Below the pieces are notes generated by a model. That model ran no database searches. It worked only from the letters and a program-made list of their open reading frames with translations, and was not told the DNA's origin. 64,000 bases of DNA, from contig CACDMX010000003.1 in assembly GCA_902554035.1 (NCBI GenBank), positions 62,001-126,000 of the forward strand. Reading direction: 5' to 3'. This document shows, piece after piece, positions 3,923 through 40,486 of the stretch; position 1 is the stretch's first letter; each line of letters starts with the position of its first letter. The position numbers and the translations under genes were made by a program. Origin of the DNA: an uncultured Pelagibacteraceae bacterium. Lineage in GTDB: Bacteria; Pseudomonadota; Alphaproteobacteria; Pelagibacterales; Pelagibacteraceae.

Positions 3923-3971
3923 TCGAAAATTAAGTACTTGCTTTTTTATACAAAAAGCATACTCACGCAAA

Positions 3972-5324
3972 ATGGACAAAATATTAAAAAATTCATGGGC
4001 ATTATTTTTAGGTATGGGATTAATAATGTTAGCTCACGGATATCAGGGATCTCTATTGGGAATTAGAGCGGTAAAAGAAGATTTTAGTCTGATCTCTACA
4101 GGTTTTATGCTTTCAGGATATTTCATTGGATACTTTATAGGAGCAAAAACTATTTCTAATTTAGTTTCAAGAGTCGGACATATACGTGTATTTGCCGCTT
4201 TTGCTTCAATTGCTTCAATCGTAATCCTACTCCATTCAATAATAATCAATCCTTTTTCTTGGTTTGTCCTAAGAATAGTAACTGGTTTTAGTATGGTTTG
4301 TTTATACACAATTGCAGAAAGTTGGCTAAATGACAGATCAAGTAATAAAAATAGAGGAAGTGTTTTATCAATTTATATGATCATTTTGTATGGAGCTATG
4401 GCCCTAGGAATGTTTTTTATAAATTTCAGTAGACCAGAAAATTTTCAACCATTCATTTTGGTTTCTTTAATTATGTCAATCTCTCTCATACCAATTTTAC
4501 TTACCAAAAGAAAACCTCCTACTTTTAAAAAAATTCTTGGAATGAAACTTAAGGATTTATATAAAACATCTCCATTTGGATTAGTTAGCTCTTTACTATG
4601 TGGATCTACACATTCTGCATTATTCTCTTTACTTGCTGTTTATGCGGCCTCAATGAATTTTACAATTTTTGAAATATCAATTGTAACTTTTTTAGTAGCA
4701 ATTTCTGGAGCAATTTCTCAATGGCCAATCGGAAAACTTTCAGATGCATTAGATAGAAGGTTGGTAATTATTTATTGTACATTTGGTTCAGCGTTGTTTG
4801 CGCTTTGCGCAATAATTGCATCTTCACAGATCTATATGCCAGAAGGTTTAGCAACTTCTAAGAACTGGTTTTATTTTTTTGTAATGTTATTTTCCTTTTG
4901 CAGTTTGCCTATGTTTGCCTTAATTTTTGCGCATACAAATGATTTTATACCTAAAGAAAAATTTGTTTCCGCTGGAGCAGGTTTACAATTTGTTTTTGGA
5001 CTTGGAGCAATGATTGGTCCATTTTTTTGCTCGCTATTTATGGATATAGTGGGTCCTAATGGTTTTTTTATTTACTTAATACTTTTTCACGCATTAATAG
5101 GTTTGTTTGGTATTTATAGAATGAAAATTAGAGAGGCAGTTGACAATCCAGACTCACAATTTGCTCCGATGCCTCAGACTATCACGCCATTGGGCTTAGA
5201 GCTTAATCCTTCTACAGAACACATTGAAGAGCCGTATAGTGAAAAAGTTAAGAAAATGCTTGAAAGAAAAGGTGTTAGTTTTAAAAAAGAAGACACTTCA
5301 AGTAAAATAAAAGAAAATATTTAA
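3972..5324 (+). CDS. MFS transporter, YcaD-like
   Basis: A 450-residue major facilitator with about twelve hydrophobic helices. The N-terminal pattern GYFIGYFIGAKTISNLVSRVGHIRVFA is split here between helix 2 and the loop 2-3 motif region, and the second half has SQWPIGKLSDALDRR, the repeated loop 8-9 motif. The order and length resemble the YcaD group of MFS proteins. The last about 65 residues are hydrophilic and charged, probably a cytoplasmic tail. It follows the EamA gene after 49 bases that contain a weak 8-bp AT hairpin (3939-3959). Substrate unknown. Confidence 0.85.
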   Translation: MDKILKNSWALFLGMGLIMLAHGYQGSLLGIRAVKEDFSLISTGFMLSGYFIGYFIGAKTISNLVSRVGHIRVFAAFASIASIVILLHSIIINPFSWFVLRIVTGFSMVCLYTIAESWLNDRSSNKNRGSVLSIYMIILYGAMALGMFFINFSRPENFQPFILVSLIMSISLIPILLTKRKPPTFKKILGMKLKDLYKTSPFGLVSSLLCGSTHSALFSLLAVYAASMNFTIFEISIVTFLVAISGAISQWPIGKLSDALDRRLVIIYCTFGSALFALCAIIASSQIYMPEGLATSKNWFYFFVMLFSFCSLPMFALIFAHTNDFIPKEKFVSAGAGLQFVFGLGAMIGPFFCSLFMDIVGPNGFFIYLILFHALIGLFGIYRMKIREAVDNPDSQFAPMPQTITPLGLELNPSTEHIEEPYSEKVKKMLERKGVSFKKEDTSSKIKENI

Positions 5325-5452
5325 GTTTAACTTTAAATAAAATAAATATAACTTTAAATTAATCTACTTGAGGTTGAGCACAACATGATCACAAAATCTT
5401 AATCTTTTCTTGTTAAAATAACAAAATTTTGTTGAAATGTACTTTTTAAAAA

Positions 5453-5719
5453 ATGGGTAAAAAAAGAAAAACAAAGAAAAAAAATAATCCACTTGGAGGC
5501 TTGGGAAAGCTTGCAAGTTTTACATCTGAATCAATAGGGTCAGCATACGACTCTTATAAAAAAAGACAACATATAAAAAAAATTGAAGAAATAAAATTAA
5601 AAAAATTAGAAGAGTCTCATAAAATTAAAGAGGAAAGAAAAGAGCTTAAATTAAAAGAAGATCAAGTTAAAAAGGATCAAGAAAAATTAAGAATAAAAGA
5701 GGAAAAACAAAAAATATAA
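5453..5719 (+). CDS. Lys/Glu-rich coiled-coil protein, N-terminal part (split by an in-frame stop)
   Basis: An 88-residue highly charged protein. Residues 1-12 are a basic cluster (GKKRKTKKKN), then a short hydrophobic/Gly stretch, and from about residue 38 a continuous predicted coiled coil made of KxxE repeats (KIKEERKEL, KLKEDQV, RIKEEKQ). The stop TAA at 5717-5719 is followed, in the same frame, by 12 sense codons leading directly into the next coiled-coil ORF at 5756 without any break in heptad character. It is therefore either the front half of a gene with a nonsense mutation or a short protein beside a paralogous one. I do not recognise a family. The 128 bases upstream hold only overlapping AT-rich inverted repeats. 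Confidence 0.55.
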   Translation: MGKKRKTKKKNNPLGGLGKLASFTSESIGSAYDSYKKRQHIKKIEEIKLKKLEESHKIKEERKELKLKEDQVKKDQEKLRIKEEKQKI

Positions 5720-6133
5720 AATGAGAGATTAAATAAAAAAGATGAAGAATTAAGAATGATAAATCTAGATCTAAGAAAAAAAGAGAAAGAATTAAAATCT
5801 AAAGAAGATGAACAAAGCCGGAAAGATATTGATCTTAAAGTAAGAGAAGATGAGCAAAATCATAAAGAAAGAAAAGAACGAAAAAGAAAGAAGTTAGAGG
5901 AGCAAAAAGTTAAATTTGAAGAGCAAAAACTTAAAGATCAAGAAATTCAAAAACTTAAAGAATGGGAACAGAAATTTGATGAAGAAAAAAAGAGAAAAGA
6001 AGCAAAGGAAAAACAAAAAGATGAAGAAATAAGAATAAAAGATTTAGAAATCCAACGACTTAAAGATCAAGAAATGCAGCAATTTAAAGAAGAATTAATT
6101 GAAGAACAAGTTAAAAAGGACGAGTTAAATTAA
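5720..6133 (+). CDS. Lys/Glu-rich coiled-coil protein, continuation
   Basis: In the same frame as the preceding ORF. The first in-frame ATG is at 5756, giving 125 residues, but the codons from 5720 (NERLNKKDEELR) already continue the coil. The whole product is a charged helical rod of LKSKEDEQ, LKVREDEQ, KLKDQEIQKLK and EIQRLKDQE repeats with almost no hydrophobic or aromatic residues and no membrane segment. Low-complexity composition makes any homology call unreliable. If the TAA at 5717 were a sense codon (one base change from AAA), the two parts would form a single protein of about 226 residues. Confidence 0.5.
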   Translation, partial: NERLNKKDEELRMINLDLRKKEKELKSKEDEQSRKDIDLKVREDEQNHKERKERKRKKLEEQKVKFEEQKLKDQEIQKLKEWEQKFDEEKKRKEAKEKQKDEEIRIKDLEIQRLKDQEMQQFKEELIEEQVKKDELN

Positions 6134-7503: not shown

Positions 7504-8409
7504 CTAATTTAGAGCTATAAATCTTCTATTAGTTTTAATTGTTAAACTATAGTAAATTATAGACATAAAAATCAAAAAACCTCCGATAATGGTATTGTTA
7601 CTCGGAATTTCGTTAATTCCAAATATTGGAAGCCATACCCAAAAAATTCCTCCTATTATTTCCGTTAAAGATAATAAGGTTAATTCTGCTGCTGGAATAG
7701 CTTTAGAGCCTATTGAGTATAAAATTAAGCCTAAACAAACAAGCGTACCATGAACTGCGAATAAACCCTCGTTATAACTTGACGATATGAAACTAGATCC
7801 ACTATTAAACAATATTGCTGAAGAGACTATTGCACAAAACATGCCAGCAATAGCAACTGTTGTAAATTTAGGTGTTTCTTTTCTCCACCTCAAAGAAACT
7901 GAAAAGACTGAAAAACCTATAGCTGACGATAAACCAAAAACTAATCCCAAAAGTGAATTTTTGTTAGTGTTTCCTATAGCCATAATAAATATTCCTACTG
8001 CGGCTACTAGTATCGCAATCCAAACATTAAAAGAAATTTTTTCCTTAAGAAATAAAAATCCTAGTAAGGCAGTCATAAAAGGCATAGCGGCTAAACAAAG
8101 CAAGGTTATTGCTGCACTTGTGTTGGTAATTGACCAAATAAAAGTTATCATTGCTACTCCCAATCCACATCCTCCAATTAAACCTGATAACCCGATATTA
8201 AAATAATTTTTATAAAAGCTTTTTCCTTCGCTAAAATACAAATAAAAATTTAAAATAATAAAAATTACAACTCCTCTAGTAAATAAATATTGCCACGGAA
8301 CTAAATTTGGTTGATCCATATAACGTACTATCAGTGGACCAAAAGACCAAAGTAAACCAGCAATTAATACAACTGGAATAGCAATTTTTTCATTTTTAAT
8401 TTCAAGCAT
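7504..8409 (-). CDS. EamA-family drug/metabolite transporter
   Basis: A 301-residue membrane protein with ten predicted helices and two EamA domains. The first half contains CLAAMPFMTALLGFLFLKE and the second LTLLSLTEIIGGIFWVWLPIF, the positions where this family has its conserved Pro/Glu. It is transcribed towards the amidinotransferase gene, with only 13 bases between them, which suggests an operon and possibly transport of a guanidino or other amino compound. That link is inference. Substrate is unknown. Confidence 0.86.
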   Translation of the reverse strand: MLEIKNEKIAIPVVLIAGLLWSFGPLIVRYMDQPNLVPWQYLFTRGVVIFIILNFYLYFSEGKSFYKNYFNIGLSGLIGGCGLGVAMITFIWSITNTSAAITLLCLAAMPFMTALLGFLFLKEKISFNVWIAILVAAVGIFIMAIGNTNKNSLLGLVFGLSSAIGFSVFSVSLRWRKETPKFTTVAIAGMFCAIVSSAILFNSGSSFISSSYNEGLFAVHGTLVCLGLILYSIGSKAIPAAELTLLSLTEIIGGIFWVWLPIFGINEIPSNNTIIGGFLIFMSIIYYSLTIKTNRRFIALN

Positions 8410-8466
8410 GTTTAATCTTTAATGCTTTAAAGAGTATTCCACAATAAAAATTATTATTTAAAGTGC

Positions 8467-9723
8467 CTAGTTTAAGATATTCTTGTTTGGAAAAATTGAA
8501 CTAAAACACTCAATTAATTCACCCTTTTTAAAAGAAGATTTGCCAGAACTTAAAAGTGCCCAAACATTTGATTTGACAAAAGATTTTATTCTGAAGGACT
8601 CTTGTCCAATTAAAATTTCAACTTCTAAAGTTCCATTATTAGTTGAGTTAAGTTTTGCTTTTAAAAATCTGGTGAAAGATTTTTTTTTTTTATAATTTTT
8701 TTTTAAAATGGCTTTAAATGGTTTTTCTTTTTTTATATTTAAAATATTTGAAAGGTAAGGATAAACAAAAAATCTAAAACATGCCGCAGAAGAAATTGGA
8801 TTGCCTGGTAACCCGAAGATTGATTTAGATTTATTTTTAAAATTTGCAAATAAAATTGGTTTACCTGGTCTTATAGCAACTCCTTTAAAAAAGCTATTCA
8901 ACTTAAACTTGTTTACAACATTTGGAATAAAATCAAACTTACCTGCTGAAACTGCGCCCGATGTAATTATTATATCAACCTTCGTGGTCAAAATCTTTTT
9001 TAATTTTTTTTCAAAATTTTTCTGATCATTATCTTTTAAGATACCACCATCAACAAAATTAAATAAAAAATTCTTTGATAAAGATTTTATATAGTAATTA
9101 TTCGAGTTTCTTACTTGCCAAGAATTTATTTTATCTTTTTCTGTTATTTCTTTTCCAGTAGAAAAAAATAATATATTTGGCTTTGACATAACTTTTATTT
9201 TTTTTATACCTAAACTTTTTAAAGCAAGAATATGAGAAGGTTGGATTAATTCACCTTTAGAAATAATTAATTCCTTTTTTTTAAAATCTGAACCTTTGAA
9301 TCTTATATGATTATTTTTTTTTACTCTTTTATTTATTAAAATATAATTTTTTTTTTCTGAATTTGGTTTAAATTTAATTTGCTCAATAGGTATAATTGTG
9401 TCAAAAGGTTTGGCAATCAATGCCCCAGTCATTACTTCGACTGTTTGAAATTTTTTCAATTTTTTTATTTTAGGATTATCTCCTGCTGCGATCGTTTTAA
9501 TTATTTTAAAATATTTTATTTTTTTTTTATTAAGGCCTAAAGTATCTTTAGAACAAATTGCATACCCATCTAAAGCGGTATTGTTATCTGAAGGTAGATT
9601 AATATTTGAATAAACGTTTTCAGCTGAAATTCTATTTAAAGATTCTATTGAACTTAAAATTTCAGTACTTATTTTTATTTTAGATTTTTCTAATATTTTT
9701 CTTGCTTTTATATATCCAATCAT
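8467..9723 (-). CDS. moeA: Molybdopterin molybdotransferase MoeA
   Basis: A 418-residue cytoplasmic enzyme that inserts molybdate into adenylylated molybdopterin. Seen in order: the N-terminal domain with LPSDNNTALDGYAI (the MoeA DGYA signature near residue 50), TVEVMTGALIAKPFDTIIP, the central MoCF-binding domain with SGAVSAGKFDFIP and FGLPGNPISS, and a C-terminal beta domain. The gene is extremely rich in A/T homopolymers (for example around 8680-8705), yet the frame is intact. It overlaps mobA by four bases and is part of a minus-strand pair that diverges from the formate dehydrogenase operon, its most likely client. Confidence 0.93.
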   Translation of the reverse strand: MIGYIKARKILEKSKIKISTEILSSIESLNRISAENVYSNINLPSDNNTALDGYAICSKDTLGLNKKKIKYFKIIKTIAAGDNPKIKKLKKFQTVEVMTGALIAKPFDTIIPIEQIKFKPNSEKKNYILINKRVKKNNHIRFKGSDFKKKELIISKGELIQPSHILALKSLGIKKIKVMSKPNILFFSTGKEITEKDKINSWQVRNSNNYYIKSLSKNFLFNFVDGGILKDNDQKNFEKKLKKILTTKVDIIITSGAVSAGKFDFIPNVVNKFKLNSFFKGVAIRPGKPILFANFKNKSKSIFGLPGNPISSAACFRFFVYPYLSNILNIKKEKPFKAILKKNYKKKKSFTRFLKAKLNSTNNGTLEVEILIGQESFRIKSFVKSNVWALLSSGKSSFKKGELIECFSSIFPNKNILN

Positions 9724-27837: not shown

Positions 27838-29268
27838 ATGCTTGATAGAAGAAATTTTTATATAAATGGGAAATGGATCAAACCTTTTAAAAAAAATGAT
27901 TTTCCAGTTATTAATCCGTCAAATGAGGAGGTATTTGCAACAATATCTTTAGGATCTAAAGAGGATACTGATGCTGCGATTAAAGCAGCAAAAAACTCTT
28001 TTAGTTCTTGGAAAGAAACTTCAAAAGCTGAAAGAATAAAATTATTAGAAAGGTTATTAGAAAATTATAAAAAAAGATTTGATGAAATGGCAGAGGCAAT
28101 GTCATTGGAAATGGGATCGCCTATCGATTATGCAATATCAACTCATGCAGCATCTGGTCAATCACATATAGAAGATTTTATAATAAGACTTAAAGAATAT
28201 AAGTTCGAAGAACATTTTGATGATAAGTCTAACAATTATATTACTCATGAACCAATTGGGGTATGTGGATTAATTACTCCATGGAACTGGCCAATCAATC
28301 AAATAGCTTTAAAAGTAATTCCGGCTTTAGCAACTGGCTGTACAATGATACTAAAACCATCTGAAATTTCACCTATCTCAGGAATGTTGTTTGCAGAAAT
28401 TATAGACCAAACAGGTTTTCCTCCAGGAGTTTTTAATTTAGTAAATGGCGATGGAAATGGAGTTGGAACGCAAATGTCAAGTCACCCTGATGTAGATATG
28501 ATTTCTTTTACTGGCTCTACAAGAGCGGGTAAACTTATTACCAAAAATGCAGCTGATACAATTAAAAGAGTTTGTTTAGAACTAGGCGGCAAAGGTGGAA
28601 ATATTGTTTTTTCAGATTCATATCCTAACGCAGTAAGAGATGGTATAAGAAATGTAATGAGCAATTCGGGTCAGTCATGTGATGCACCAACTAGAATGCT
28701 CGTTGAGGAAACTATATATGAAAGAGCAGTCAAAGAAGCTGTAGATGAGGCAAAAAAAATTAAAGTTGATATAGCTTCAAAAAAAGGAGATCACATAGGT
28801 CCAGTAGTCTCAAAAGTTCAATATGATAAAATTATTAAGTTAATCAAAGATGGAATTAAAGAAGGAGCAACTCTTGCAGCAGGAGGCCCAGAGCTCCCTG
28901 AAGGTTTAAATAAAGGTTATTTTATAAAACCAACTATATTCACACATGTCACGAATAATATGCAAATTGCAAAAAAAGAAATTTTTGGTCCAGTCCTTTC
29001 AATAATACCATTTAAAACTGAAGATGAAGCGGTAAAAATCACTAATGATACAGAGTACGGTTTAGGAAACTACTTGCAAACTGAAGACAAAGAAAAAGCA
29101 AAAAGAGTTGCAAAAAAATTAAGATCTGGAGTTGTTTATATCAATGGAAATGGGGCAGATTCTGGAACACCTTTTGGTGGATATAGACAATCAGGCAATG
29201 GAAGAGAGGGTGGAACATGGGGTTTAGAAGAATATTTAGAAGTAAAAACAATTACAGGATGGAAGTAA
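27838..29268 (+). CDS. NAD(P)-dependent aldehyde dehydrogenase
   Basis: A 476-residue member of the ALDH superfamily. The key stretches are TPWNWPINQIALKVIPALA, ISFTGSTRAGKLI, the catalytic Glu in CLELGGKGGN and the nucleophilic Cys in NSGQSCDAPTRM, then KEIFGPVLSIIPF and GGYRQSGNGREGG. It could oxidise betaine aldehyde, trimethylaminobutyraldehyde, succinate semialdehyde or others, and the sequence does not decide. Being between a hydroxyacid-dehydrogenase gene and a glycerophosphodiesterase gene, and near betaine genes, it is a candidate for the aldehyde step of choline-to-betaine conversion. That is inference. Confidence 0.9.
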   Translation: MLDRRNFYINGKWIKPFKKNDFPVINPSNEEVFATISLGSKEDTDAAIKAAKNSFSSWKETSKAERIKLLERLLENYKKRFDEMAEAMSLEMGSPIDYAISTHAASGQSHIEDFIIRLKEYKFEEHFDDKSNNYITHEPIGVCGLITPWNWPINQIALKVIPALATGCTMILKPSEISPISGMLFAEIIDQTGFPPGVFNLVNGDGNGVGTQMSSHPDVDMISFTGSTRAGKLITKNAADTIKRVCLELGGKGGNIVFSDSYPNAVRDGIRNVMSNSGQSCDAPTRMLVEETIYERAVKEAVDEAKKIKVDIASKKGDHIGPVVSKVQYDKIIKLIKDGIKEGATLAAGGPELPEGLNKGYFIKPTIFTHVTNNMQIAKKEIFGPVLSIIPFKTEDEAVKITNDTEYGLGNYLQTEDKEKAKRVAKKLRSGVVYINGNGADSGTPFGGYRQSGNGREGGTWGLEEYLEVKTITGWK

Positions 29269-29277
29269 TTTTAGGGG

Positions 29278-29922
29278 ATGTCACACTCAATAATCCATAG
29301 AGGATTAGCAAAGAAGAATTTTAAAGAAAATACGCTTAAGTCTTTTAAATACTGTTTTAACAAAAAATATGGTATCGAAACTGATCTCCATTGTACTAAA
29401 GATGACATAATAATATGCTTTCATGATTTTAGCTTAAAAAGAAAGTTTAAAACAAATAAATTAGTAAAAAATCTTACTTTTGACGAAATCAATAAAATAT
29501 CAAATAAATTTGGATACTATATTCCTAAATTAGAAGAATTAATAACAATTTCCAAAAATAAGAGATATTTGATGTTGGAAATAAAATCTTACTTTACAAA
29601 AAAAAATTTAATTCAATTAATCAATCAAACAAAAAAATTAAAATCATTTAGTATTACCTCATTTAATGAGAAAAATATAAAAAATTTGAGTTTGTTAAAG
29701 AAAAATTTAAATTTAGGTTTATGTTTTGCATCTACTGTTCCAATTCAGAAAATAATAAACAAAAGTAAATTAAAATATGTAAAAATTATTGTTACTGAAA
29801 AAAAATTTCTATCCTCAAAAAAAATAAATTTAATAAACAAACCAATATATTTTTATACTGCAAGAGGTAAAAAAATTAGAAAAAAATATAAAGAAAAAAA
29901 TTTAATTTTTGAAAATTTATAA
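29278..29922 (+). CDS. Glycerophosphodiester phosphodiesterase family protein
   Basis: A 214-residue TIM-barrel phosphodiesterase without a signal peptide. Catalytic landmarks are SIIHRGLAKKNFKENTLKSF (HRG...ENT) at the N-terminus, GIETDLHCTKDD (metal-binding Glu/Asp) and ICFHDFSLKRK (second His). A later Glu is in LMLEIKS. The enzyme hydrolyses glycerophosphodiesters such as glycerophosphocholine to glycerol-3-phosphate plus the alcohol. If the substrate is glycerophosphocholine, the choline released could feed the nearby dehydrogenases. The C-terminal half is unusually Lys/Asn-rich. It overlaps the convergent dioxygenase gene by six bases. Confidence 0.85.
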   Translation: MSHSIIHRGLAKKNFKENTLKSFKYCFNKKYGIETDLHCTKDDIIICFHDFSLKRKFKTNKLVKNLTFDEINKISNKFGYYIPKLEELITISKNKRYLMLEIKSYFTKKNLIQLINQTKKLKSFSITSFNEKNIKNLSLLKKNLNLGLCFASTVPIQKIINKSKLKYVKIIVTEKKFLSSKKINLINKPIYFYTARGKKIRKKYKEKNLIFENL

Positions 29923-31050
29923 TTTATTTTTAAGATAGCTTAATCTTCCAATTATTTCGTCTCTATCCATATAATAACCTTGTAGATGTCTGTGTCCAGA
30001 ATTTGGATCAAAAGCCGTTCTTCCATGTAAAAGACGTCTATTATTAAAAGAGAAAATATCACCTGGCTCTAATCTAAATTTAATTTGAAATTTTTCATCA
30101 TGTAAGAGATTGCCAAATCTATGATGGGCTTTATAAACTTTTTCCATAATATCTGGATGACAATCTAATGCGTCCATAGTAGCAACACTGAATCTTATAT
30201 CATTATAGTCTCCGTCTTTTGTTAAGCTAATTGCTGGTCCATAAAAACTTCGGTGAGCTTCTTGTGTATAATCTTTGTCTCTAAATTTTAGAGGTATGTT
30301 TACTAATGTATCAAAAATTTCTTTTTCATTTTTTTTTAAATATTCTGCTACAGCGAATGCATCAACAGCAGAAGAATCTCCACCTTTGGCTGAATTAATA
30401 AGACAATGTAAAAATTGGTAACCTGGCGGGTTTTCAAACCACGGTAAATCCATATGATTATTTAATGCATGAGCTGTATATGCTGAATTATTTGGCTTTG
30501 GGATATTTATAACTTCAAAAGGTGTTTTGAAAAAAGTTTCACGCGTATGACTTATTCTATTCAAAACAGGAAAAGCAGATTCTTTTTCCACTGGAGAATT
30601 TTTAACTATAGCAATTCCTTTAAAATGTAAAAGTTCTAACCATTTTATAAGTCCCTCGTCTGAATTTATAATTTCATCATGTTCTATATGTATTGATTTT
30701 AAATTATTTTGCAGAGAGCTGTTCCATAAAAGATATGGAGAAATATAATCTTTTTTATTTTTTATTGTATAACAGTTATTTCTAAGCCATTTTTGATCAT
30801 AATAGCTTATATGATTTCCTTCGCTCCAAACAATTTCCAATTTACCTTGTTCATTTATTTTGTAATTACGAGGCTCAATGTTTGTAGATACATCTAGTAT
30901 ATTAAACATTCTGTGTCTTGAGTCTTTGTCATGAGCTGTTGGACAATTATCCCTTAACCACATAAAATTGAAATTACTTTTTTCCCCATCACTCCATTCA
31001 ATGTTTAAAGTTGAATTACCTTTTGAAACTTTTGAAATTTCTATGTCCAT
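29917..31050 (-). CDS. Gamma-butyrobetaine hydroxylase / TmpA-type 2-oxoglutarate dioxygenase
   Basis: A 377-residue protein. Residues 1 to about 95 form the DUF971-like zinc domain of this family (FMWLRDNCPTAHDKDSRHR). Of the usual cysteine ligands only one Cys remains, with His residues nearby. The catalytic jelly-roll has HMDLPWFENPPGYQFLHC (HxD iron ligands and substrate loop), GGDSSAVDAF, and the distal His and 2-oxoglutarate Arg in LLHGRTAFDP and GHRHLQGYYMD. Known members hydroxylate gamma-butyrobetaine to carnitine, trimethyllysine, or 2-trimethylaminoethylphosphonate (TmpA). It is divergent from the proX betaine-binding gene across 175 bases holding an inverted repeat, which supports a quaternary-amine substrate. 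Confidence 0.88.
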   Translation of the reverse strand: MDIEISKVSKGNSTLNIEWSDGEKSNFNFMWLRDNCPTAHDKDSRHRMFNILDVSTNIEPRNYKINEQGKLEIVWSEGNHISYYDQKWLRNNCYTIKNKKDYISPYLLWNSSLQNNLKSIHIEHDEIINSDEGLIKWLELLHFKGIAIVKNSPVEKESAFPVLNRISHTRETFFKTPFEVINIPKPNNSAYTAHALNNHMDLPWFENPPGYQFLHCLINSAKGGDSSAVDAFAVAEYLKKNEKEIFDTLVNIPLKFRDKDYTQEAHRSFYGPAISLTKDGDYNDIRFSVATMDALDCHPDIMEKVYKAHHRFGNLLHDEKFQIKFRLEPGDIFSFNNRRLLHGRTAFDPNSGHRHLQGYYMDRDEIIGRLSYLKNKL

Positions 31051-31225: not shown

Positions 31226-32251
31226 ATGAGATTTCTAAAGAAACTATTTCTTTCAATTGCTTTTATAGCAGTAACATCTTTAGGCACAACAAGTGCTAAT
31301 GCTGCTTGCAAAGTACACTTGGGAGATTTTGACTGGGATAGTGCTAACGTTCATACTGCAATCGTTGGTTATATTATTGAAAAAGGATATGGCTGTAATG
31401 TTGAAGTAACTAAAGGTAGTACTAGTCCAATAATGGCTGCTCATTACGATCAACAGTTAGATATTATCACTGAAGTTTGGAGAGATAACATTGTGCAAAT
31501 GCATGAAGAAGCTGTAGCAGCAGGAAAAATTGTTGAACTAGGAGTAAATACTCCATCTTCTACTCAAGGATTTTATGTCGATAAAAAGACATCAGATAAA
31601 TATAATTTAAAATCTGTTGAAGATATGAAGGATCCTAAGATTGCTAAACTATTTGCTGATCCAGAGGCACCTGGAAAAGGCAGAATGACTAGCTGTATTT
31701 CTGGATGGACTTGCTACACAATTAATATGGTTAAACACAAAGTTTATGGTTTAGATAAATACTATACAAACTTTGACCCAGGTTCTGGAGGAGCTTTAGA
31801 TGCTGCTATCGCTGGAGCATTTAAAAAAGGTAAACCAGTATTTTCATATTACTGGACACCAACTGGTTTAATGGGAAAAGTTGATTTAGTTCAACTTAAA
31901 GAACCAGCTTACAAAGCTGATTGTTGGACAAAAATGATGAAAGTAGTCGAGGATATTAAAGCGAATGGTCCTGATGCATATAAAGATACATGCGCAAGTG
32001 CTTATGTTGACATGGCATTAACAAAATCTGCTTCAACTACTTTTGCTAATGATCCAGCAAATAAACCAATTATTGACTTTGTAAAAGCATACACTTTGCC
32101 TACTGCTGAAGTGAATAAATCGCTTGCATTTTACATGGATGAATCAGGTGGAGATATGGAAGCAACAGCTAAGAACTTTTTAAAAGGTTCTAGCTCATGG
32201 ACTAAATGGGTTCCTGCAGATGTTGCTAAAAAAGTTAAAGCGTCGCTTTAA
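31226..32251 (+). CDS. proX: Glycine betaine/proline ABC transporter substrate-binding protein (ProX type)
   Basis: A 341-residue periplasmic protein with a signal peptide (hydrophobic LFLSIAFIAVTSLGTTSANA, cleavage after ANA near residue 27). The OpuAC-domain features are GDFDWDSANVHTAIVGYI at the start of the mature protein, EVWRDNIVQMH, SCISGWTCYTINM and PVFSYYWTPTGLM. The Trp and Tyr residues in these stretches are those that form the aromatic cage for quaternary amines in this family. Ligands may include glycine betaine, choline, carnitine or related compounds. It is followed by a strong terminator-like hairpin and then by the permease and ATPase genes. Confidence 0.93.
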   Translation: MRFLKKLFLSIAFIAVTSLGTTSANAACKVHLGDFDWDSANVHTAIVGYIIEKGYGCNVEVTKGSTSPIMAAHYDQQLDIITEVWRDNIVQMHEEAVAAGKIVELGVNTPSSTQGFYVDKKTSDKYNLKSVEDMKDPKIAKLFADPEAPGKGRMTSCISGWTCYTINMVKHKVYGLDKYYTNFDPGSGGALDAAIAGAFKKGKPVFSYYWTPTGLMGKVDLVQLKEPAYKADCWTKMMKVVEDIKANGPDAYKDTCASAYVDMALTKSASTTFANDPANKPIIDFVKAYTLPTAEVNKSLAFYMDESGGDMEATAKNFLKGSSSWTKWVPADVAKKVKASL

Positions 32252-32271
32252 TTTTTAAAAAAATAATTAAT

Positions 32272-32303
32272 ACTGAGAGCCCTTTTGGGCTCTCAGTGTT
32301 TTA
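32272..32303 (+). terminator. Hairpin terminator/attenuator between proX and proW
   Basis: Perfect 11-bp stem (ACTGAGAGCCC at 32272-32282 with GGGCTCTCAGT at 32287-32297), TTTT loop, followed by GTTTT. It lies in the 62-base gap after proX. Because proW and proV follow in the same direction without another promoter that I can see, it probably acts as a partial terminator that makes the binding protein more abundant than the membrane parts. Confidence 0.88.
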
Positions 32304-32313
32304 GGAATGGTTA

Positions 32314-33330
32314 ATGGAGAAGTATAAAAAATATTTTAATTTAGTTTATTTAATAGCTTTTATTGCTATGGTTGTTGTTGCTTACACAACTTCAAAATAT
32401 AGACCGGAAAGTATTTCTGTTTTATTTACAGATCCCTCATGGTTAGGAAATTGGCCTAAATGGCTAGATCTTCCGTTAATGCCATTTTTAAACGATGGGT
32501 TTGATAAACTTATAAAAGAGTATGGAATGTTTTTTGAGGGTATTAATAATTTTCTACTTGGTCTTTATACTGATATGAAAAATTTTATGGTTGGCTTACC
32601 CTGGCCAATATTAATGATTTCGGTAATTGCTCTTTGTTATTTTGTAAGCGGGAGAAATACAGGAACAACAATTATGGTTGCATTCTGTGTTTTTTTTCTT
32701 GGTTTTCTAAGCCCAAGATATTGGGATAAATGTATTATGACAACTTGTATAGTTGTAATAGGAATGCTTCTTTGTTTGATTATTGGTATTCCAGTTGGAA
32801 TTTTGATGGCAAGAAATAAAAAAGTAAGAAATGCTATATTGCCTGTTCTAGATTTAATGCAGACTATTCCTAGCTTTTGCTACTTAATTCCAGGAATATT
32901 ATTATTTGGTTTAGGTGCTGTTCCAGCAATATTTGCTATCTTTGTGTATGCTGTTCCTCCTTTAATAAGACTAACTGATCTTGGAATAAGATTAGTTGAT
33001 AAAGAAGTCGTAGAAGCAGCTGAGGCTTTTGGTGCTAATAAAAAACAAAAACTTTGGGGAGTACAACTGCCATTAGCATTACCAAATATAATGCAAGGTA
33101 TAAATCAATGTACAATGATGTCTTTGGCAATGGTAGTAATTGCATCAATGATAGGTACCAGGGGAATTGGTGATGAGGTGCTGCTAGGTTTACAACAATT
33201 AAACGTTGGAATGGCTACTGAAGCAGGTATTGCAATTGTTTTGCTAGCTATTATTTTCGACCGAATTACGCAATCTTATGGAGAAAAAATTCAAGAAAGA
33301 ACACACAATAAAAAGAAATTAATTTTATAA
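32314..33330 (+). CDS. proW: Glycine betaine/proline ABC transporter permease (ProW type)
   Basis: A 338-residue inner-membrane protein. Unlike short OpuAB permeases it keeps the long N-terminal region (about 110 residues with one to two extra helices) seen in ProW. The transport domain contains LLCLIIGIPVGILMARNKK, LDLMQTIPSFCYLIPGILLFG and the ATPase-contact loop EAAEAFGANKKQKLWGVQLPLALPNI. MIGTRGIGDEVLLGLQQLNVG follows as in ProW. The partner ATPase starts five bases downstream. Confidence 0.94.
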   Translation: MEKYKKYFNLVYLIAFIAMVVVAYTTSKYRPESISVLFTDPSWLGNWPKWLDLPLMPFLNDGFDKLIKEYGMFFEGINNFLLGLYTDMKNFMVGLPWPILMISVIALCYFVSGRNTGTTIMVAFCVFFLGFLSPRYWDKCIMTTCIVVIGMLLCLIIGIPVGILMARNKKVRNAILPVLDLMQTIPSFCYLIPGILLFGLGAVPAIFAIFVYAVPPLIRLTDLGIRLVDKEVVEAAEAFGANKKQKLWGVQLPLALPNIMQGINQCTMMSLAMVVIASMIGTRGIGDEVLLGLQQLNVGMATEAGIAIVLLAIIFDRITQSYGEKIQERTHNKKKLIL

Positions 33331-33335
33331 AAAAT

Positions 33336-34361
33336 ATGAGCAAGATTGAAATAAAAAATGTATACAAAATTTTTGGTGATCAGCCCACGAAAGTGCTTCC
33401 AATGGTCAAAGATGGAGCAACAAAAGAGGAAGTGTTAGAAAAAACGGGACATACTATTGGTTTAGATAATGTATCTTTATCTATAGAAGAAGGAGAGACC
33501 TTTGTTTGCATGGGTTTATCTGGCTCAGGCAAATCTACTCTTATTCGTCATATCAATAGATTAATAGACCCAACATCAGGTGAAGTTTCAGTTGAGGGAA
33601 CAAATGTTATGGACCTAAATCAAAAACAGTTGATTGAGTTTAGAAGACATAAAATGAGTATGGTTTTTCAAAGATTTGGATTGTTTCCTCACAAAACAGT
33701 TTTAGAGAATGTTGGTTATGGTCTTGAAGTTCAAGGTCAAAAACCTGAAGAAAGAAACAAAACTGCAATGGAAAAGATTGAAGCAGTAGGTTTAAATGGG
33801 TTTGAACATCAATATCCAAATCAATTATCTGGGGGGATGCAGCAAAGAGTTGGTTTAGCAAGAGCTTTAGCCACAAATACAGATATAATGCTTATGGATG
33901 AAGCATTTTCAGCACTAGATCCTTTGATAAGAAGTGACATGCAAAAACAATTGATGGATTTACAAAGTGAATTAAAAAAAACAATAGTTTTTATTACACA
34001 TGATTTAGATGAATCTCTGAGATTAGGCGATCATATAGGAATTTTAAATGGTGGAAAATTAGTACAAGTTGGTACACCTGTTGACATTATAATGAACCCA
34101 GCTGATGATTATGTGACTGCTTTCGTAAAAGATGTTAATAGAGCAAAAGTTATTAAAGCAAAAATTATAATGAAGCCAGCAAGTGAGGCTAATGGTATTG
34201 ATAAAAAAAATCTTGTTAAAGTTCAAGAAGATCAATTTATTGAGGAATTTTTGCCCCAAGTTGTTTGCAACGATGCAAATTGTGAAGTAGTTGACAAACA
34301 AGGAAATATAAAAGGATACATTACAAACAAAGAATTACAAAAATCTTTAACTAAGTCATAG
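33336..34361 (+). CDS. proV: Glycine betaine/proline ABC transporter ATP-binding protein (ProV type)
   Basis: A 341-residue ATPase. Walker A GLSGSGKST near residue 60, SMVFQRFGLFPHKTV (Q-loop), signature LSGGMQQRVGLARAL, Walker B IMLMDEAFSALDP and FITHDLDESLRLGDHIGIL are diagnostic for ProV/OpuAA, whose N-terminus carries an extra segment with TGHTIGLDNVSL as here. The C-terminal region (about residues 275-341) is shorter than the full tandem CBS domain of E. coli ProV, so osmotic gating may be reduced. The next gene (SDR) starts three bases after the stop, suggesting cotranscription. Confidence 0.94.
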   Translation: MSKIEIKNVYKIFGDQPTKVLPMVKDGATKEEVLEKTGHTIGLDNVSLSIEEGETFVCMGLSGSGKSTLIRHINRLIDPTSGEVSVEGTNVMDLNQKQLIEFRRHKMSMVFQRFGLFPHKTVLENVGYGLEVQGQKPEERNKTAMEKIEAVGLNGFEHQYPNQLSGGMQQRVGLARALATNTDIMLMDEAFSALDPLIRSDMQKQLMDLQSELKKTIVFITHDLDESLRLGDHIGILNGGKLVQVGTPVDIIMNPADDYVTAFVKDVNRAKVIKAKIIMKPASEANGIDKKNLVKVQEDQFIEEFLPQVVCNDANCEVVDKQGNIKGYITNKELQKSLTKS

Positions 34362-34364
34362 TTA

Positions 34365-35153
34365 ATGGCTAATCATTCTTTAAAGAGTAAAAAAATTATT
34401 ATATCTGCTGGAGCATCTGGAATTGGATTTGCTATAGCAAAAGTTTGTTTGTCAAAAGGGGCGATTGTTTATCTTTGTGACATTAATGAAAAACAAATTA
34501 ATAAACTTAAAAAACATCCTCTTAATAATAAAAGATTATTTAGTTATGTATATGATGCTTCCAACGAGTATGATGTTTCAAATTTTTTTTTAGAAATTAA
34601 AAAAAAAACAAAAAAAATAGATGCACTAATTAATAATGTGGGCGTTGCTGGGCCTACTGGTAACATAGAGGAACTCGACTCAGATGATTGGGAAAAAACT
34701 TTAAAAACAAATGTAATTAGTCATTTTTATTTTTCAAAATTAGCTATACCGATGCTTAAAATGAATAAAGGTGGATCTATTGTTAATCTTTCTTCTGGTG
34801 CAGGTATTATGGGTTTTCCTCTAAGATCTCCTTACGCAGCAAGCAAATGGGCTGTTATTGGTATGACAAAAACTTTAGCCATAGAACTTGGCAAATTTAA
34901 AATTAGAGTTAATGCAATTTGTCCTGGAACAATTAAAGGTGACAGAATGGTAAGAGTTATAAGAGATAAAGCGAAGTTTTTAAAAGTTTCTAAAAAAAAA
35001 ATTGAAAAAGAATTTATATCTATGGCCTCTATGAATTGTTGGATCTATGAGGAAGATATAGGAAAAATATGTGCTTTTCTTATTTCTGATGACAGTGGAA
35101 GAATTTCCGGACAAGTCGTAGGCGTTGATGGTAACGCCATACGACTTGATTAA
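34365..35153 (+). CDS. Short-chain dehydrogenase/reductase (SDR)
   Basis: A 262-residue NAD(P)-dependent classical SDR. Cofactor motif ISAGASGIGFAIAK near residues 12-25, INNVGVAG (NNxG), catalytic Ser in IVNLSSGAG and Tyr-Lys in SPYAASKWAVIGMTKTLA, then RVNAICPGTIKGDRM. It is translationally adjacent to proV, so its substrate is likely the imported compound or a product of it. With a gamma-butyrobetaine-type hydroxylase on one side and a carnitine-type keto-acid cleavage enzyme on the other, it is a candidate for the missing carnitine 3-dehydrogenase step, although known carnitine dehydrogenases belong to the 3HCDH family. That assignment is inference. Confidence 0.88.
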   Translation: MANHSLKSKKIIISAGASGIGFAIAKVCLSKGAIVYLCDINEKQINKLKKHPLNNKRLFSYVYDASNEYDVSNFFLEIKKKTKKIDALINNVGVAGPTGNIEELDSDDWEKTLKTNVISHFYFSKLAIPMLKMNKGGSIVNLSSGAGIMGFPLRSPYAASKWAVIGMTKTLAIELGKFKIRVNAICPGTIKGDRMVRVIRDKAKFLKVSKKKIEKEFISMASMNCWIYEEDIGKICAFLISDDSGRISGQVVGVDGNAIRLD

Positions 35154-35732: not shown

Positions 35733-36617
35733 TTAATTATGTTTAGTAAGCTTGAGCTTTTCTCTTGTTTCTTCTGGAGTCATTGCAGTAACACCTAAAT
35801 CATTGATAATTCTCATAGCTTTTTCAACAAGTTGTGCATTTGTAGCTAGTTTGCCTTTAGATAAATATAAATTATCCTCAAGGCCAACTCTTGGGTTTCC
35901 CCCCATAACTACAGTTTGAGCAACAAATGGCATTTCGTTTTTAGAAATAGCGAATCCAGACCATACTCCCTCTTTAGGCATTATATCTTTCATGGCTTGC
36001 ATAGCCAATGGTGTAGCTGGAGCGCCCCAAGGGATACCTAAACACATTTGAAACATTGGAGGATCGCTTAACAAACCCTCTTTATAAAGTTGTGCTCCAA
36101 ACCACATATTGCCTAAATCAAATGCTTCTATTTCTGGTTTTACTTTTATTTCTTTTAATCTTTTTGCAGCTTTTCTTAAATCTCTCGGGGTATTAATAGT
36201 TATGACAGAACCATCGCCGAAATTAAGAGTTCCACAATCTAAAGTGCAAATTTCGGGTAAAAACTGTTCTGCGTTTGCAATTCTTTCTGTCACGTTTGCC
36301 ATATCAGTTAGTGGGCCAAATTGTAATGGACTATTTTCTCCAATATCAAGATCCCCACCCATTCCAGTTGTCAAATTAATTATTACATCGGTGTCACTAG
36401 ATCTTATTCTATCAACAACTTCTTTGTATAATTCAAGTCTCCTACTTGGAGTGCCATCCTTTTCTCTTACGTGGATATGTGCAATAGCTGCTCCTGCTTT
36501 AGCAGCTTCGATTGACGCTTTTGCAATTTGTTCAGGTGTCTTAGGCAAATCTGGGTGTTTACCGGCAGTATCACCAGATCCAGTTACTGCGCAGGATATA
36601 AAAACTTTATTGTTCAT
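35733..36617 (-). CDS. Beta-keto acid cleavage enzyme (BKACE, DUF849), 3-dehydrocarnitine type
   Basis: A 294-residue TIM-barrel zinc enzyme that condenses a beta-keto acid with acetyl-CoA to give acetoacetate and a new acyl-CoA. Zinc ligands are seen in AHIHVRE (HxH near residue 47) and in NPRVGLEDNLY (Glu near 238). Landmarks ISCAVTGSGDT, INLTTGMGGDL, ICTLDCGTLNFGDG and CLGIPWGAPA resemble the subgroup (CdhC) that cleaves 3-dehydrocarnitine to betainyl-CoA. The subgroup call is from pattern memory, not a search. It is divergent by 49 bases from a thioesterase of the kind that hydrolyses betainyl-CoA, which strongly supports the pairing. Confidence 0.87.
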   Translation of the reverse strand: MNNKVFISCAVTGSGDTAGKHPDLPKTPEQIAKASIEAAKAGAAIAHIHVREKDGTPSRRLELYKEVVDRIRSSDTDVIINLTTGMGGDLDIGENSPLQFGPLTDMANVTERIANAEQFLPEICTLDCGTLNFGDGSVITINTPRDLRKAAKRLKEIKVKPEIEAFDLGNMWFGAQLYKEGLLSDPPMFQMCLGIPWGAPATPLAMQAMKDIMPKEGVWSGFAISKNEMPFVAQTVVMGGNPRVGLEDNLYLSKGKLATNAQLVEKAMRIINDLGVTAMTPEETREKLKLTKHN

Positions 36618-36666: not shown

Positions 36667-37137
36667 ATGTCAATTAATTTAAAAAGTCAAAAAATTATTA
36701 AAGAATGGACCGATTATAATAACCATATGAACGTTGCTTATTATAACTTAATTTTTGATATATATGGCGCAGAAATTTTAATGACAAAATTTAAAATGGG
36801 AGAGCATTCAGCAAAGACAACTAAAAAGAGTATAATGTGGGTTGAGACCCATATAGTTTACAATCAAGAAGTAAAAGAAGGAGATGAAGTAGATATAAAT
36901 TTGACCTTTGTTGATCATGATAAAAAAAGAGTTTTATATAAAATGGAAATGATTCATAAGGAAAAAAAATACCTTGCTGCTGCAATTGAAGTACTTGCCT
37001 TGTATGTAGACTTGGGCCAAAGAAAGGTTGCTGAGTTTGAAGATGAAAAGATTAAAATTATGGATGAATACATTGAAAAAAATAAAAGTGGATTTAATAA
37101 TAAAGATTTAAAATTTTTATCTAAATTAAAAAAATAA
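36667..37137 (+). CDS. Hotdog-fold acyl-CoA thioesterase, betainyl-CoA thioesterase-like
   Basis: A 156-residue 4HBT-type hotdog protein. The N-terminal EWTDYNNHMNVAYYNLIFD (catalytic Asp/His region near residues 18-36) is the pattern of thioesterases that follow or are fused to carnitine dehydrogenases (CdhB type), and IMWVETHIVYNQEVKEGDEV fits the second strand. It would release glycine betaine from betainyl-CoA. Its divergent, 49-base neighbour is a BKACE, the enzyme that would make that thioester. Specificity is inferred from context. Confidence 0.8.
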   Translation: MSINLKSQKIIKEWTDYNNHMNVAYYNLIFDIYGAEILMTKFKMGEHSAKTTKKSIMWVETHIVYNQEVKEGDEVDINLTFVDHDKKRVLYKMEMIHKEKKYLAAAIEVLALYVDLGQRKVAEFEDEKIKIMDEYIEKNKSGFNNKDLKFLSKLKK

Positions 37138-37539: not shown

Positions 37540-38367
37540 ATGAAAATAAGTTTAACATCAGGTGCATTAGGCGCTGAAGTTGAAGGGATAGATCTTAAAA
37601 ATTCCTCAAAAGAAAACTTTAGTAAGATTAATGAGCTTTTGCTAGAACATAAAGTGATTTTTTTTAGAGACCAAAATATTTCACCTGAGCAACAAATAAA
37701 TTTAGCAAAATTTTTTGGTCCTTTAGAAAGACATGTTTATGTTAAGGGTAGAGAAAAATTTCCTGAGATAATAAGAATAATTAAAGGCCGTAACGAAAAA
37801 CACCAGTGGGGAGAAACCTGGCATACAGATGTGAGTTATAATAAAAATCCTACAAAAGTTATTATTTTAAAATCTATAAAGATACCTCCTGTGGGTGGTG
37901 ATACAATGTTTTCAAATATGGAAATTGCTTACGATACATTAGATGAAAAAATTAAAAAAAAAATAAAAGATAAAAAAGCAATTCATAGTTCTTTAGGAGC
38001 TGCCGCTTTTGTAGAAAAGTATGAGGAAATGGAGGGAAATGGAAACTTGGATGAATATTCTAATGAACATCCAGTTGTCAGAACTCATCCTGAAACTGGA
38101 AAAAAAATTCTATATGTAAACTCAATGTATACAAAAAAAATTTTAGGAATGGATAAAAATGAAAGCGATGATATTTTAAAAGAAATTTTTCTTCACCAGG
38201 AAAGACTAGATTTTACCTGTAGATTTAAATGGACAGAAAATGCTGTAGCTATCTGGGATAATAGAAGTACACAGCATCAAGGTTTAACTGACTTTTTTCC
38301 CGGAAGAGGGCTTGGTTTTGAGAGAATAATGGATCGAATTGCTATTGAAGGAGATAAACCAAATTAA
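37540..38367 (+). CDS. TauD/TfdA-family 2-oxoglutarate dioxygenase
   Basis: A 275-residue iron/2-oxoglutarate oxygenase. The N-terminus (SGALGAEVEGIDLK) and KVIFFRDQNISPEQ are typical of TauD. Iron ligands are His and Asp in WHTDVSY, and the distal His in TQHQGLTDFFPGR with the 2-oxoglutarate-binding Arg shortly after. Relatives hydroxylate taurine, aryloxyacetates or other small acids so that they break down. It is five bases upstream of a PhnZ/TmpB-type oxygenase gene. Such pairs hydroxylate an alkyl phosphonate next to phosphorus and then cleave the C-P bond. Whether the substrate is a phosphonate is not proven. Confidence 0.88.
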   Translation: MKISLTSGALGAEVEGIDLKNSSKENFSKINELLLEHKVIFFRDQNISPEQQINLAKFFGPLERHVYVKGREKFPEIIRIIKGRNEKHQWGETWHTDVSYNKNPTKVIILKSIKIPPVGGDTMFSNMEIAYDTLDEKIKKKIKDKKAIHSSLGAAAFVEKYEEMEGNGNLDEYSNEHPVVRTHPETGKKILYVNSMYTKKILGMDKNESDDILKEIFLHQERLDFTCRFKWTENAVAIWDNRSTQHQGLTDFFPGRGLGFERIMDRIAIEGDKPN

Positions 38368-38372
38368 AATTA

Positions 38373-38909
38373 ATGAACGTAATTTATAAAATTATTTCAA
38401 ATTTTATTAACAACAAATCTTTATATATTGGAGAAAGTGTTACGATGTCAGAACATATGATTCAAGCTGCGATGCTTGCAGAAAAAGCAAAAGCTAATGA
38501 TAGTTTAATATGCGCTTGTTTGCTTCACGATTATGGTCATTTTCTTTTAAAAGATCCTAGTGAATTGGTAGAAAAAAAATTGGATGGAAAACATGAGGAT
38601 ATAGGGTACGAATATTTAAAAAAATTCTTTAAAGAGGATGTTGTAGAGCCTATAAAATATCACGTAATTGCCAAAAGATATTTAGTAAGAAAAAAAAAAT
38701 ATTTTAATCAATTGTCAGAAGCATCAAAGATAAGCTTAAAATTGCAAGGTGGAATGTTAAATAAAAAGGAAAGCGAAGAATTTGAAAAAAATAAATTTTT
38801 TAAAGATGCAATTAATTTAAGAAAATTTGATGAATTTGCAAAAAAGACTAATATTAAAATGAAAAATATTAGCCAATACGAAGATTTGCTTCGTTCTAAA
38901 CTTTTATGA
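38373..38909 (+). CDS. PhnZ/TmpB-type mixed-valent diiron HD oxygenase
   Basis: A 178-residue HD-fold protein. All diiron ligands of PhnZ can be matched with near-identical spacing: His28, His52, Asp53, His74, His97 and Asp153. The two residues that occupy the open iron site in PhnZ until substrate binds (Tyr and Glu 10 and 7 residues before the first His) are also present as Tyr18 and Glu21. This makes an oxygenase far more likely than a hydrolase. PhnZ cleaves 2-amino-1-hydroxyethylphosphonate to glycine and TmpB cleaves the trimethyl analogue to glycine betaine. The gene follows a TauD-type dioxygenase and overlaps a GMC dehydrogenase by four bases, in one operon. Confidence 0.87.
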   Translation: MNVIYKIISNFINNKSLYIGESVTMSEHMIQAAMLAEKAKANDSLICACLLHDYGHFLLKDPSELVEKKLDGKHEDIGYEYLKKFFKEDVVEPIKYHVIAKRYLVRKKKYFNQLSEASKISLKLQGGMLNKKESEEFEKNKFFKDAINLRKFDEFAKKTNIKMKNISQYEDLLRSKLL

Positions 38910-40486
38910 AATTTGATTATATAATAATTGGAGCTGGTTCAGCTGGATGCGTTTTGGCAAATAGATTAACTGATAACGCAAAAAATAATGTTGCTTTAAT
39001 GGAAGCTGGCAAACCTAGTGACATTTGGAAAGTAAACATGCCTCTTGCAATTTTATACACAATGCATGATCCAAAATATAATTACAAATACTATTCAGAA
39101 CCAGAACCTCATTTAAATGGCAGAAGATTATTTTGCCCAAGAGGAAAAATGATCGGTGGTTGTTCTGCCCATAACGGAATGGTATATGTTAGAGGAAATC
39201 CTAACGACTATCAAAGATGGAAAGCTTTTGGATTAAAAGATTGGTCTTATAAAAAAGTTTTGCCATATTTTAAAAAAATCGAAACTTGGTCTGAAGGGGA
39301 AAATGAATACAGAGGTGGTAGTGGTATTCTTCCAGTTAATCAATCTAAAAATAAAAATCCTTTATTTAAAGCATTTATAGATTCTGCTGGAGAAGCTGGT
39401 TACAAAATTAATACTGATATGAACGGCAAAGATCAAGAGGGCTTTGGAATGTACGATGTTACAATCCATAAAGGAGAAAGAGCAAGTGTTTCAAAATATT
39501 ATTTAAATCCTGCAAAAAAAAGAAAAAATTTGAAGGTTTTCACAGAAGCTTTTGTTGAAAGAATTATATTTGAAGGAAAAAAGGCTGTGGGTATTGAAGT
39601 TAAAATTAAAAATAAAATTGAGAAGATTTACGTTAATAAAGAGGTAATTTTAAGTGGTGGAGCAATTAATTCACCTCAATTGCTAATGCTTTCCGGAGTC
39701 GGTCCAAGTCAACATTTAAAAGATAAAGGAATTAAAGTTGTCCAGAATCTAGAAGGTGTTGGAAAAAACTTACAGGACCATCTTGAAACTTACATACAAC
39801 AAGAGTGTAAAACTAAAGATACTTTATATTCTTATATAAATAAAATTAATATGCTTAAAATAGGTATTCAATGGTTTTTAAATAAAAGTGGTCCATGTTC
39901 TACATCTTTTTTAGAGGCTGGCGGTTTTTGCAAATCATCTCCTGAGAGAGAATTCCCAAATATACAATTTCATTTTTTTCCTGCATTTGTAATTGATCAT
40001 GGATTAGTTGATCCAGATAGACATGGGTATCAATTACACGCAAGTCCAAATCATCCAAAAAGTAGAGGACATATAACTTTAAATAGTTCTAATCCTTATG
40101 ATTATCCAAAAATTCAATTTAATTATTTAGAGCACGAAGATGATTTAAAACAAACTATAGAAAGTATTCATGTAGCGAGAAAAATTTTAGGTCAAAGCTC
40201 TTTGAAACCTTATGCTGGAGAAGAAATTGGACCTGGAGAAAATGCACAGACTAATGAGGTTTTTGAGGAATATATTAGATCAAAAGCAGAAACCGCTTAT
40301 CATCCATCTTGTACATTAAAAATGGGAACTGACAAAATGGCAGTTGTTGATGAAAAATTAAAGATTCATGGTCTTGATAACATAAGGGTTGTCGATGCTT
40401 CTGTTATGCCTGAGATAACTAGTGGAAACTTAAACGCACCTACATTAATGATTGCTGAAAAAGCAGCTGACTTAATATTAAATTAA
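38906..40486 (+). CDS. GMC-family FAD oxidoreductase, choline dehydrogenase-like
   Basis: A 526-residue flavoprotein. FAD motif IIIGAGSAGCVLANRL at residues 6-21, PRGKMIGGCSAHNGMVYVRGNPNDY (GMC signature 1), SGGAINSPQLLMLSGVGP (signature 2), and the C-terminal AYHPSCTLKMG and RVVDASVMPEITSGNLNAPTLMIAEKAA, with the active-site His. Length and motifs fit BetA-type alcohol dehydrogenases. Choline to betaine aldehyde is one possibility, but many paralogues in marine bacteria act on other alcohols. It is the third gene of the TauD-PhnZ-GMC operon (ATGA overlap), so its alcohol may be related to the substrate of those oxygenases. Confidence 0.9.
   Translation: MKFDYIIIGAGSAGCVLANRLTDNAKNNVALMEAGKPSDIWKVNMPLAILYTMHDPKYNYKYYSEPEPHLNGRRLFCPRGKMIGGCSAHNGMVYVRGNPNDYQRWKAFGLKDWSYKKVLPYFKKIETWSEGENEYRGGSGILPVNQSKNKNPLFKAFIDSAGEAGYKINTDMNGKDQEGFGMYDVTIHKGERASVSKYYLNPAKKRKNLKVFTEAFVERIIFEGKKAVGIEVKIKNKIEKIYVNKEVILSGGAINSPQLLMLSGVGPSQHLKDKGIKVVQNLEGVGKNLQDHLETYIQQECKTKDTLYSYINKINMLKIGIQWFLNKSGPCSTSFLEAGGFCKSSPEREFPNIQFHFFPAFVIDHGLVDPDRHGYQLHASPNHPKSRGHITLNSSNPYDYPKIQFNYLEHEDDLKQTIESIHVARKILGQSSLKPYAGEEIGPGENAQTNEVFEEYIRSKAETAYHPSCTLKMGTDKMAVVDEKLKIHGLDNIRVVDASVMPEITSGNLNAPTLMIAEKAADLILN

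Follow-up and report, generated by a model that had tools for sequence, protein, structure and literature searches.

A PhnZ/TmpB-type oxygenase in a SAR11 carnitine and choline island may release glycine betaine from a quaternary-ammonium phosphonate

The window analysed here, a stretch of 64,000 nucleotides, comes from a SAR11 genome of 1.07 Mb (28 contigs, 86% complete), whose closest named relatives are Pelagibacteraceae single-cell genomes (best HD identity, 98%). It carries three consecutive genes (Table 1), for a TauD-family dioxygenase (TauD), an HD-domain oxygenase (HD) and a GMC flavoprotein (GMC); a gap of 5 bases separates TauD from HD, and HD overlaps GMC by 4 bases (ATGA). A recheck of the open reading frames reproduced the frames, strands and spacing given for the three genes in an earlier sequence-only reading of this DNA, and Pfam and NCBIfam profiles upheld its family calls. 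The order TauD-HD-GMC with a short spacer recurs in all 35 named Pelagibacteraceae loci whose contig includes the upstream gene, where the distance from TauD to HD is usually 3-12 bases, stop codon included. A survey of 297 SAR11 genomes located HD genes of the window's clade in 31 of them, as far as contigs reach at one and the same spot, after a thioesterase gene, usually with a BKACE gene, and near genes for a BBOX-type dioxygenase, a ProXWV-type transporter and an SDR dehydrogenase.

Table 1. Genes of the island, with positions in the window
Feature	Position	Strand	Evidence
Aldehyde dehydrogenase (ALDH), betaine-aldehyde-dehydrogenase-like	27838..29268	+	TIGR01804 2.2e-128, below its cut-off
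BBOX-type 2OG dioxygenase, probably gamma-butyrobetaine hydroxylase-like; not TmpA	29917..31050	-	Clade, residues
ProX-ProW-ProV type ABC transporter (choline/betaine/carnitine-like compounds), candidate importer	31226..34361	+	OpuAC 1.8e-45, ChoW-type permease 7.9e-77, synteny
SDR dehydrogenase, candidate carnitine (3-hydroxy) dehydrogenase	34365..35153	+	Role inferred from synteny
BKACE beta-keto acid cleavage enzyme, candidate dehydrocarnitine cleavage	35733..36617	-	PF05853 3.8e-92
Thioesterase, candidate betainyl-CoA thioesterase	36667..37137	+	4HBT_2 1.8e-19; thioesterase half of carnitine 3-dehydrogenase fusions 8.2e-14
TauD-family 2-oxoglutarate/Fe(II) dioxygenase, 275 aa; candidate first-step hydroxylase	37540..38367	+	PF02668 1.5e-57, invariant residues, neighbours
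HD-domain mixed-valent diiron oxygenase, PhnZ/TmpB type, 178 aa	38373..38909	+	Profiles, residues, fold
GMC flavoprotein, choline-dehydrogenase (BetA) type, 526 aa; constant locus member	38906..40486	+	GMC domains, BetA match

The enzyme pairs PhnY/PhnZ and TmpA/TmpB carry out a hydroxylation followed by oxidative cleavage of the C-P bond, yielding glycine or glycine betaine plus phosphate. In HD, the iron ligand set H...HD...H...H...D is complete (His28, His52, Asp53, His74, His97 and Asp153), and the YxxE switch loop, described as a defining feature (PMC8177086), is present as Tyr18-Glu21. All eight residue numbers put forward from the sequence are exact and align with the equivalent positions of PhnZ (4mlm) and TmpB (6npa). 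Across HD and its divergent relatives (n = 18), 28 columns are invariant, including His56, Lys101-Arg102, Ser115, Ser118, Gln125-Gly-Gly and Arg150. The matches to TIGR03276 (E = 1.7e-51), to the TmpB model NF049941 (E = 2.9e-47) and to TmpB among PDB sequences (E = 3.3e-33) show that this likeness is not due to chance; PhnZ follows at E = 3.4e-27, and no other PDB entry is found at E 0.001. The structural comparison with PhnZ and TmpB suggested by the sequence-only reading gave a consistent picture: Foldseek searches with the predicted structure of HD (pLDDT 92.9) returned ten matches with E < 0.001, all of them PhnZ or TmpB (E about 1e-11), followed by a match at E = 0.34 and, at E = 0.58, by myo-inositol oxygenase, the HD oxygenase with a non-phosphonate substrate that the sequence-only reading had in view as a refuting placement. 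Given that the iron ligands and the Tyr18/Glu21 pair are kept and that the model matches PhnZ and TmpB alone, HD is very likely a C-P-cleaving oxygenase. Its sequence, fold and active-site residues, together with the phosphonate genes around its relatives, back the earlier assignment to the PhnZ/TmpB type. HD does not reach the curated cut-off of any of the three phosphonate HD models (174.3 of 214.6 bits for TIGR03276, 160.8 of 300 for NF049941 and 135 of 300 for the third), so that we describe it as working like TmpB and not as a TmpB member. In the HD tree, the window's clade forms its own long branch, not joined to TmpB, and the deep nodes are weak; the substrate is therefore argued here from residues and context.

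HD relatives outside the window's clade adjoin phosphonate genes, namely those for a PhnCDE-type transporter, PhnX, PhnW, a PhnY-like PhyH protein, PhnM-like proteins or an adjacent TmpA. Within SAR11, HD clades at 45% and 40% identity (loci L031-L043 and L044-L049) adjoin PhnCDE-type transporters, PhnX or PhnW (names read from the sequences), with no hydroxylase adjacent. In other Alphaproteobacteria, many HD relatives directly adjoin a BBOX-family gene that groups with TmpA, and others a PhnY-like protein. Two alphaproteobacterial loci, L127 and L146, hold TmpA-TmpB beside a second BBOX gene, L127 also with BKACE, which may be a parallel link of TmpAB with carnitine genes. In the window itself, a second, remote PhnZ-like HD protein (553-1107; TIGR03276, 41 bits) directly follows a short open reading frame, and its 55% identical counterpart lies near a TauD gene in locus L187.

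A pair of residues on the helix bearing the first iron ligand, His28, bears on the substrate. Positions 25 and 29 are Met25/Met29 in the window's HD and Met or Ile with Met29 throughout its clade, and TmpB likewise has Met (or Ile) and Met; PhnZ and most PhnCDE-linked SAR11 HD proteins have Gln25 with Ala, Ser or Gly29. Met29 occurs in 13 of 17 BBOX-adjacent HD relatives versus 2 of 20 others (Fisher p = 5e-5, uncorrected for kinship). The Met25/Met29 pair may read a trimethylammonium group; the pair could be convergent, since the tree does not join the window's clade to TmpB.

The genes of the island fit a route from gamma-butyrobetaine and carnitine to glycine betaine, and choline would suit the BetA-like GMC. 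Of the 31 genomes with a window-clade HD, 30 contain a BKACE orthologue and the 31st is cut off by the end of a contig; 6 control genomes contain none. The BBOX-type protein lacks N176, Y177, N205, Y207, R208, N292 and R294-S295 (human BBOX numbering), common to 17/17 TmpA-clade proteins, and it lacks this signature likewise in genomes without HD. Since it carries Ser where human BBOX and TmpA have Asn292, its substrate may not be gamma-butyrobetaine; it belongs to another branch of the island than HD. In some SAR11 genomes the island has two Rieske-type oxygenase-like genes nearby, as at 2321-5920 of locus L160.

GMC contains both GMC domains, and its best solved relative is the oxygen-dependent choline dehydrogenase BetA (PDB 9lq0), matched over the full length (E = 9.5e-153); it passes the PRK02106 subfamily cut-off and falls just below the TIGR01810 equivalog cut-off for BetA (679/732). 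Among 79 SAR11 genomes sampled through their GMC gene, which are incomplete but include many that are >90% complete, 25 have TauD and HD, 31 TauD only, 6 HD only and 17 neither. Given the GMC locus, the association of TauD with HD is not significant (p = 0.14), and the two are not obligately present together: loci with TauD-GMC but no HD outnumber those with TauD-HD-GMC, and in a subclade of six genomes HD-GMC persists in the absence of TauD. At least 3 changes in HD presence are required on the GMC tree, where the HD-only genomes group together as one clade, although the HD-negative rows were drawn through TauD hits, so that the tree alone is biased. The locus has GMC as its core, with TauD and HD each as an optional module of its own, and the operon reading is less strong than it seemed at first. 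Indeed, with 31 genomes carrying TauD only, TauD must be useful without HD. An extra 286-aa gene in the six TauD-less loci was considered as a replacement hydroxylase and rejected, as by eye it resembles a CitE-type lyase and not a dioxygenase. In locus L066 (genome G236, about 7880-8700), HD and GMC are intact but TauD is split over two frames, through either a broken gene or a sequencing error.

With moderate confidence, we propose that HD works like TmpB in this SAR11 island, releasing glycine betaine and phosphate from a quaternary-ammonium hydroxyphosphonate. In an iron-dependent reaction, HD would act on (R)-1-hydroxy-2-(trimethylammonio)ethylphosphonate or on a closely related quaternary-ammonium compound. 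It would be an optional module of an island in which the other branches likewise end in glycine betaine, the carnitine branch via SDR, BKACE and thioesterase and the choline branch via the BetA-like GMC enzyme. The substrate, its ProXWV-type uptake and the glycine betaine product are what we infer.

The known system that comes closest is TmpA/TmpB of Leisingera caerulea (PDB 6npa, 6npb), reportedly the subject of work by Rajakovich in 2019. HD aligns with this TmpB over 149 residues and shares its ligands, switch pair, Met/Met pair, fold and trimethylammonium context, but, besides falling short of the TmpB model and of the TmpB branch, it has no adjacent TmpA, is accompanied by a different family, TauD, and lies inside a carnitine/choline island. 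With PhnZ of the PhnY*/PhnZ pair of HF130_AEPn_1 (PDB 4mlm, 4mln, 4n6w, 4n71), HD has in common the fold, ligands, Tyr/Glu switch and invariant active-site residues; unlike there, no PhyH-family hydroxylase is adjacent, and Met replaces Gln and Ser at positions 25 and 29. Homology extends to PhnZ1 of the methylphosphonate pair PhnY/PhnZ1 of Gimesia maris (E = 2.5e-39), but HD is far below the model cut-off and has no PhnY partner.

By position, TauD is the best candidate for making the hydroxyphosphonate, an assignment that we offer tentatively: no TmpA or PhnY-like gene adjoins HD, and TauD does so instead. TauD is a true PF02668 protein with the facial triad of E. coli TauD (1gqw), the Burkholderia enzyme (5vn6) and RdpA (6d1o; E about 1e-44 to 1e-48). 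His95, Asp97 and His246, as well as His65 and Arg266, are invariant across its SAR11 orthologues (n = 43). The latter two correspond in the alignment to His70 and Arg270 of the E. coli enzyme, which bind the sulfonate of taurine. Trp90-Gly-Glu92, preceding the first iron ligand, is invariant in 43/43 SAR11 proteins; in the readable relatives outside SAR11, Phe-Gly stands there instead, with Gly, Thr or Val as the third residue. The structure model of TauD (pLDDT 51) was not used. Two TauD types, Ser195-Met196-Gln247 and Trp195-Thr196-Tyr247, occur at the same locus, each with and without HD.

It is conceivable, if somewhat doubtful, that TauD is specialised as a phosphonate alpha-hydroxylase, adding a third type of first-step enzyme to PhnY (PhyH family) and TmpA (BBOX family), and that TauD and HD together carry out a two-step C-P oxidation. 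The invariant His65 and Arg266 are in line with this, as are the position of TauD directly upstream of HD in 25 of the 31 HD-bearing genomes and in every named locus with upstream sequence, the missing TmpA signature of the BBOX protein, and the outcome for the PhyH proteins checked as a hidden PhnY, the two examined in the source genome matching PhnY models weakly or not at all (best, 37.6 of 500 bits). Against it stand the independent occurrence of the two genes in the 79 genomes and the catalytic residues of TauD, which are kept equally without HD (15/15) as with it; among the neighbours of the 20 non-SAR11 proteins most closely related to TauD, there is neither a PhnZ/TmpB-type HD gene nor a GMC gene, which also weighs on that side, uninformative as it is.

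Alternatively, HD could act on hydroxyphosphonates imported ready-made or supplied by an unlinked enzyme, with TauD and GMC serving an unrelated reaction. The six genomes that keep HD without TauD, the independent assortment of the two genes and the two other SAR11 HD clades with PhnCDE-type transporters and no adjacent hydroxylase speak for this scenario, but the tight, conserved spacing of TauD and HD does not, and most of the genomes concerned lack the expected transporter, making it rather unlikely. Indeed, the absence of a phosphonate transporter from the window, noted previously, extends to the 86% complete genome, in which no PhnD-type protein exceeds the family cut-off, and such a protein does so in just 4 of the 31 genomes with a window-clade HD. 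Because the PhnD-type protein is missing from most of them, uptake by ProXWV is the simplest guess.

We regard it as improbable that HD, like PhnZ, acts on a primary amine, converting (R)-1-hydroxy-2-aminoethylphosphonate to glycine. The fold and catalytic residues are the same, PhnZ structures rank with TmpB in Foldseek, and SAR11 has an unusual glycine auxotrophy (PMC12478193); however, the replacement of Gln25 with Ala/Ser/Gly29 by Met/Ile25 with Met29 in the window's clade and the trimethylammonium compounds of the surrounding island point elsewhere. Finally, the suggestion of the sequence-only reading that the BBOX-type enzyme at 29.9 kb may serve as TmpA is very hard to sustain, because this protein, although present in 30 of the 31 HD genomes and of the same superfamily as TmpA, lies outside the TmpA clade (94/97 support), lacks the signature residues and is surrounded by genes that fit carnitine degradation.

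Returning to the proposed TmpB-like role of HD with TauD as the candidate first enzyme, the persistence of TauD without HD indicates that TauD probably also acts on another compound. A substrate with anionic and cationic ends, such as trimethyltaurine or a phosphonate analogue, would fit. Trimethyltaurine would do so because its alpha-hydroxysulfonate would collapse unaided to betaine aldehyde, whereas the phosphonate needs HD; the betaine aldehyde could then be oxidised by GMC or ALDH. In the fullest version, TauD would hydroxylate both trimethylaminoethylphosphonate and trimethyltaurine, yielding glycine betaine and phosphate where HD is present and betaine aldehyde and sulfite where it is not, a speculative scheme to which we assign a low likelihood.

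Pelagibacterales PhnZ-like genes and oceanic TmpB-related genes have already been reported (PMC9381506, PMC8316502), the former accounting for 45% of marine phnZ sequences and treated as 2-aminoethylphosphonate catabolism (PMC9381506). We found no paper describing the TauD-HD-GMC locus or this island in a search conducted largely outside subscription journals. SAR11 dominates surface-ocean heterotrophy. If the window's HD clade cleaves a quaternary phosphonate, its members are listed under a wrong substrate in the marine phnZ counts, and one supply of both phosphate and betaine has so far been missed. That TauD and HD assort independently cautions against treating the three adjacent genes as a single pathway. 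If TauD serves both the phosphonate and trimethyltaurine, it would represent a hydroxylase subfamily new to C-P oxidation, and, if true, a single TauD pocket would serve both the sulfur cycle and the phosphorus cycle in the ocean's most abundant group of heterotrophs, without a dedicated phosphonate transporter.
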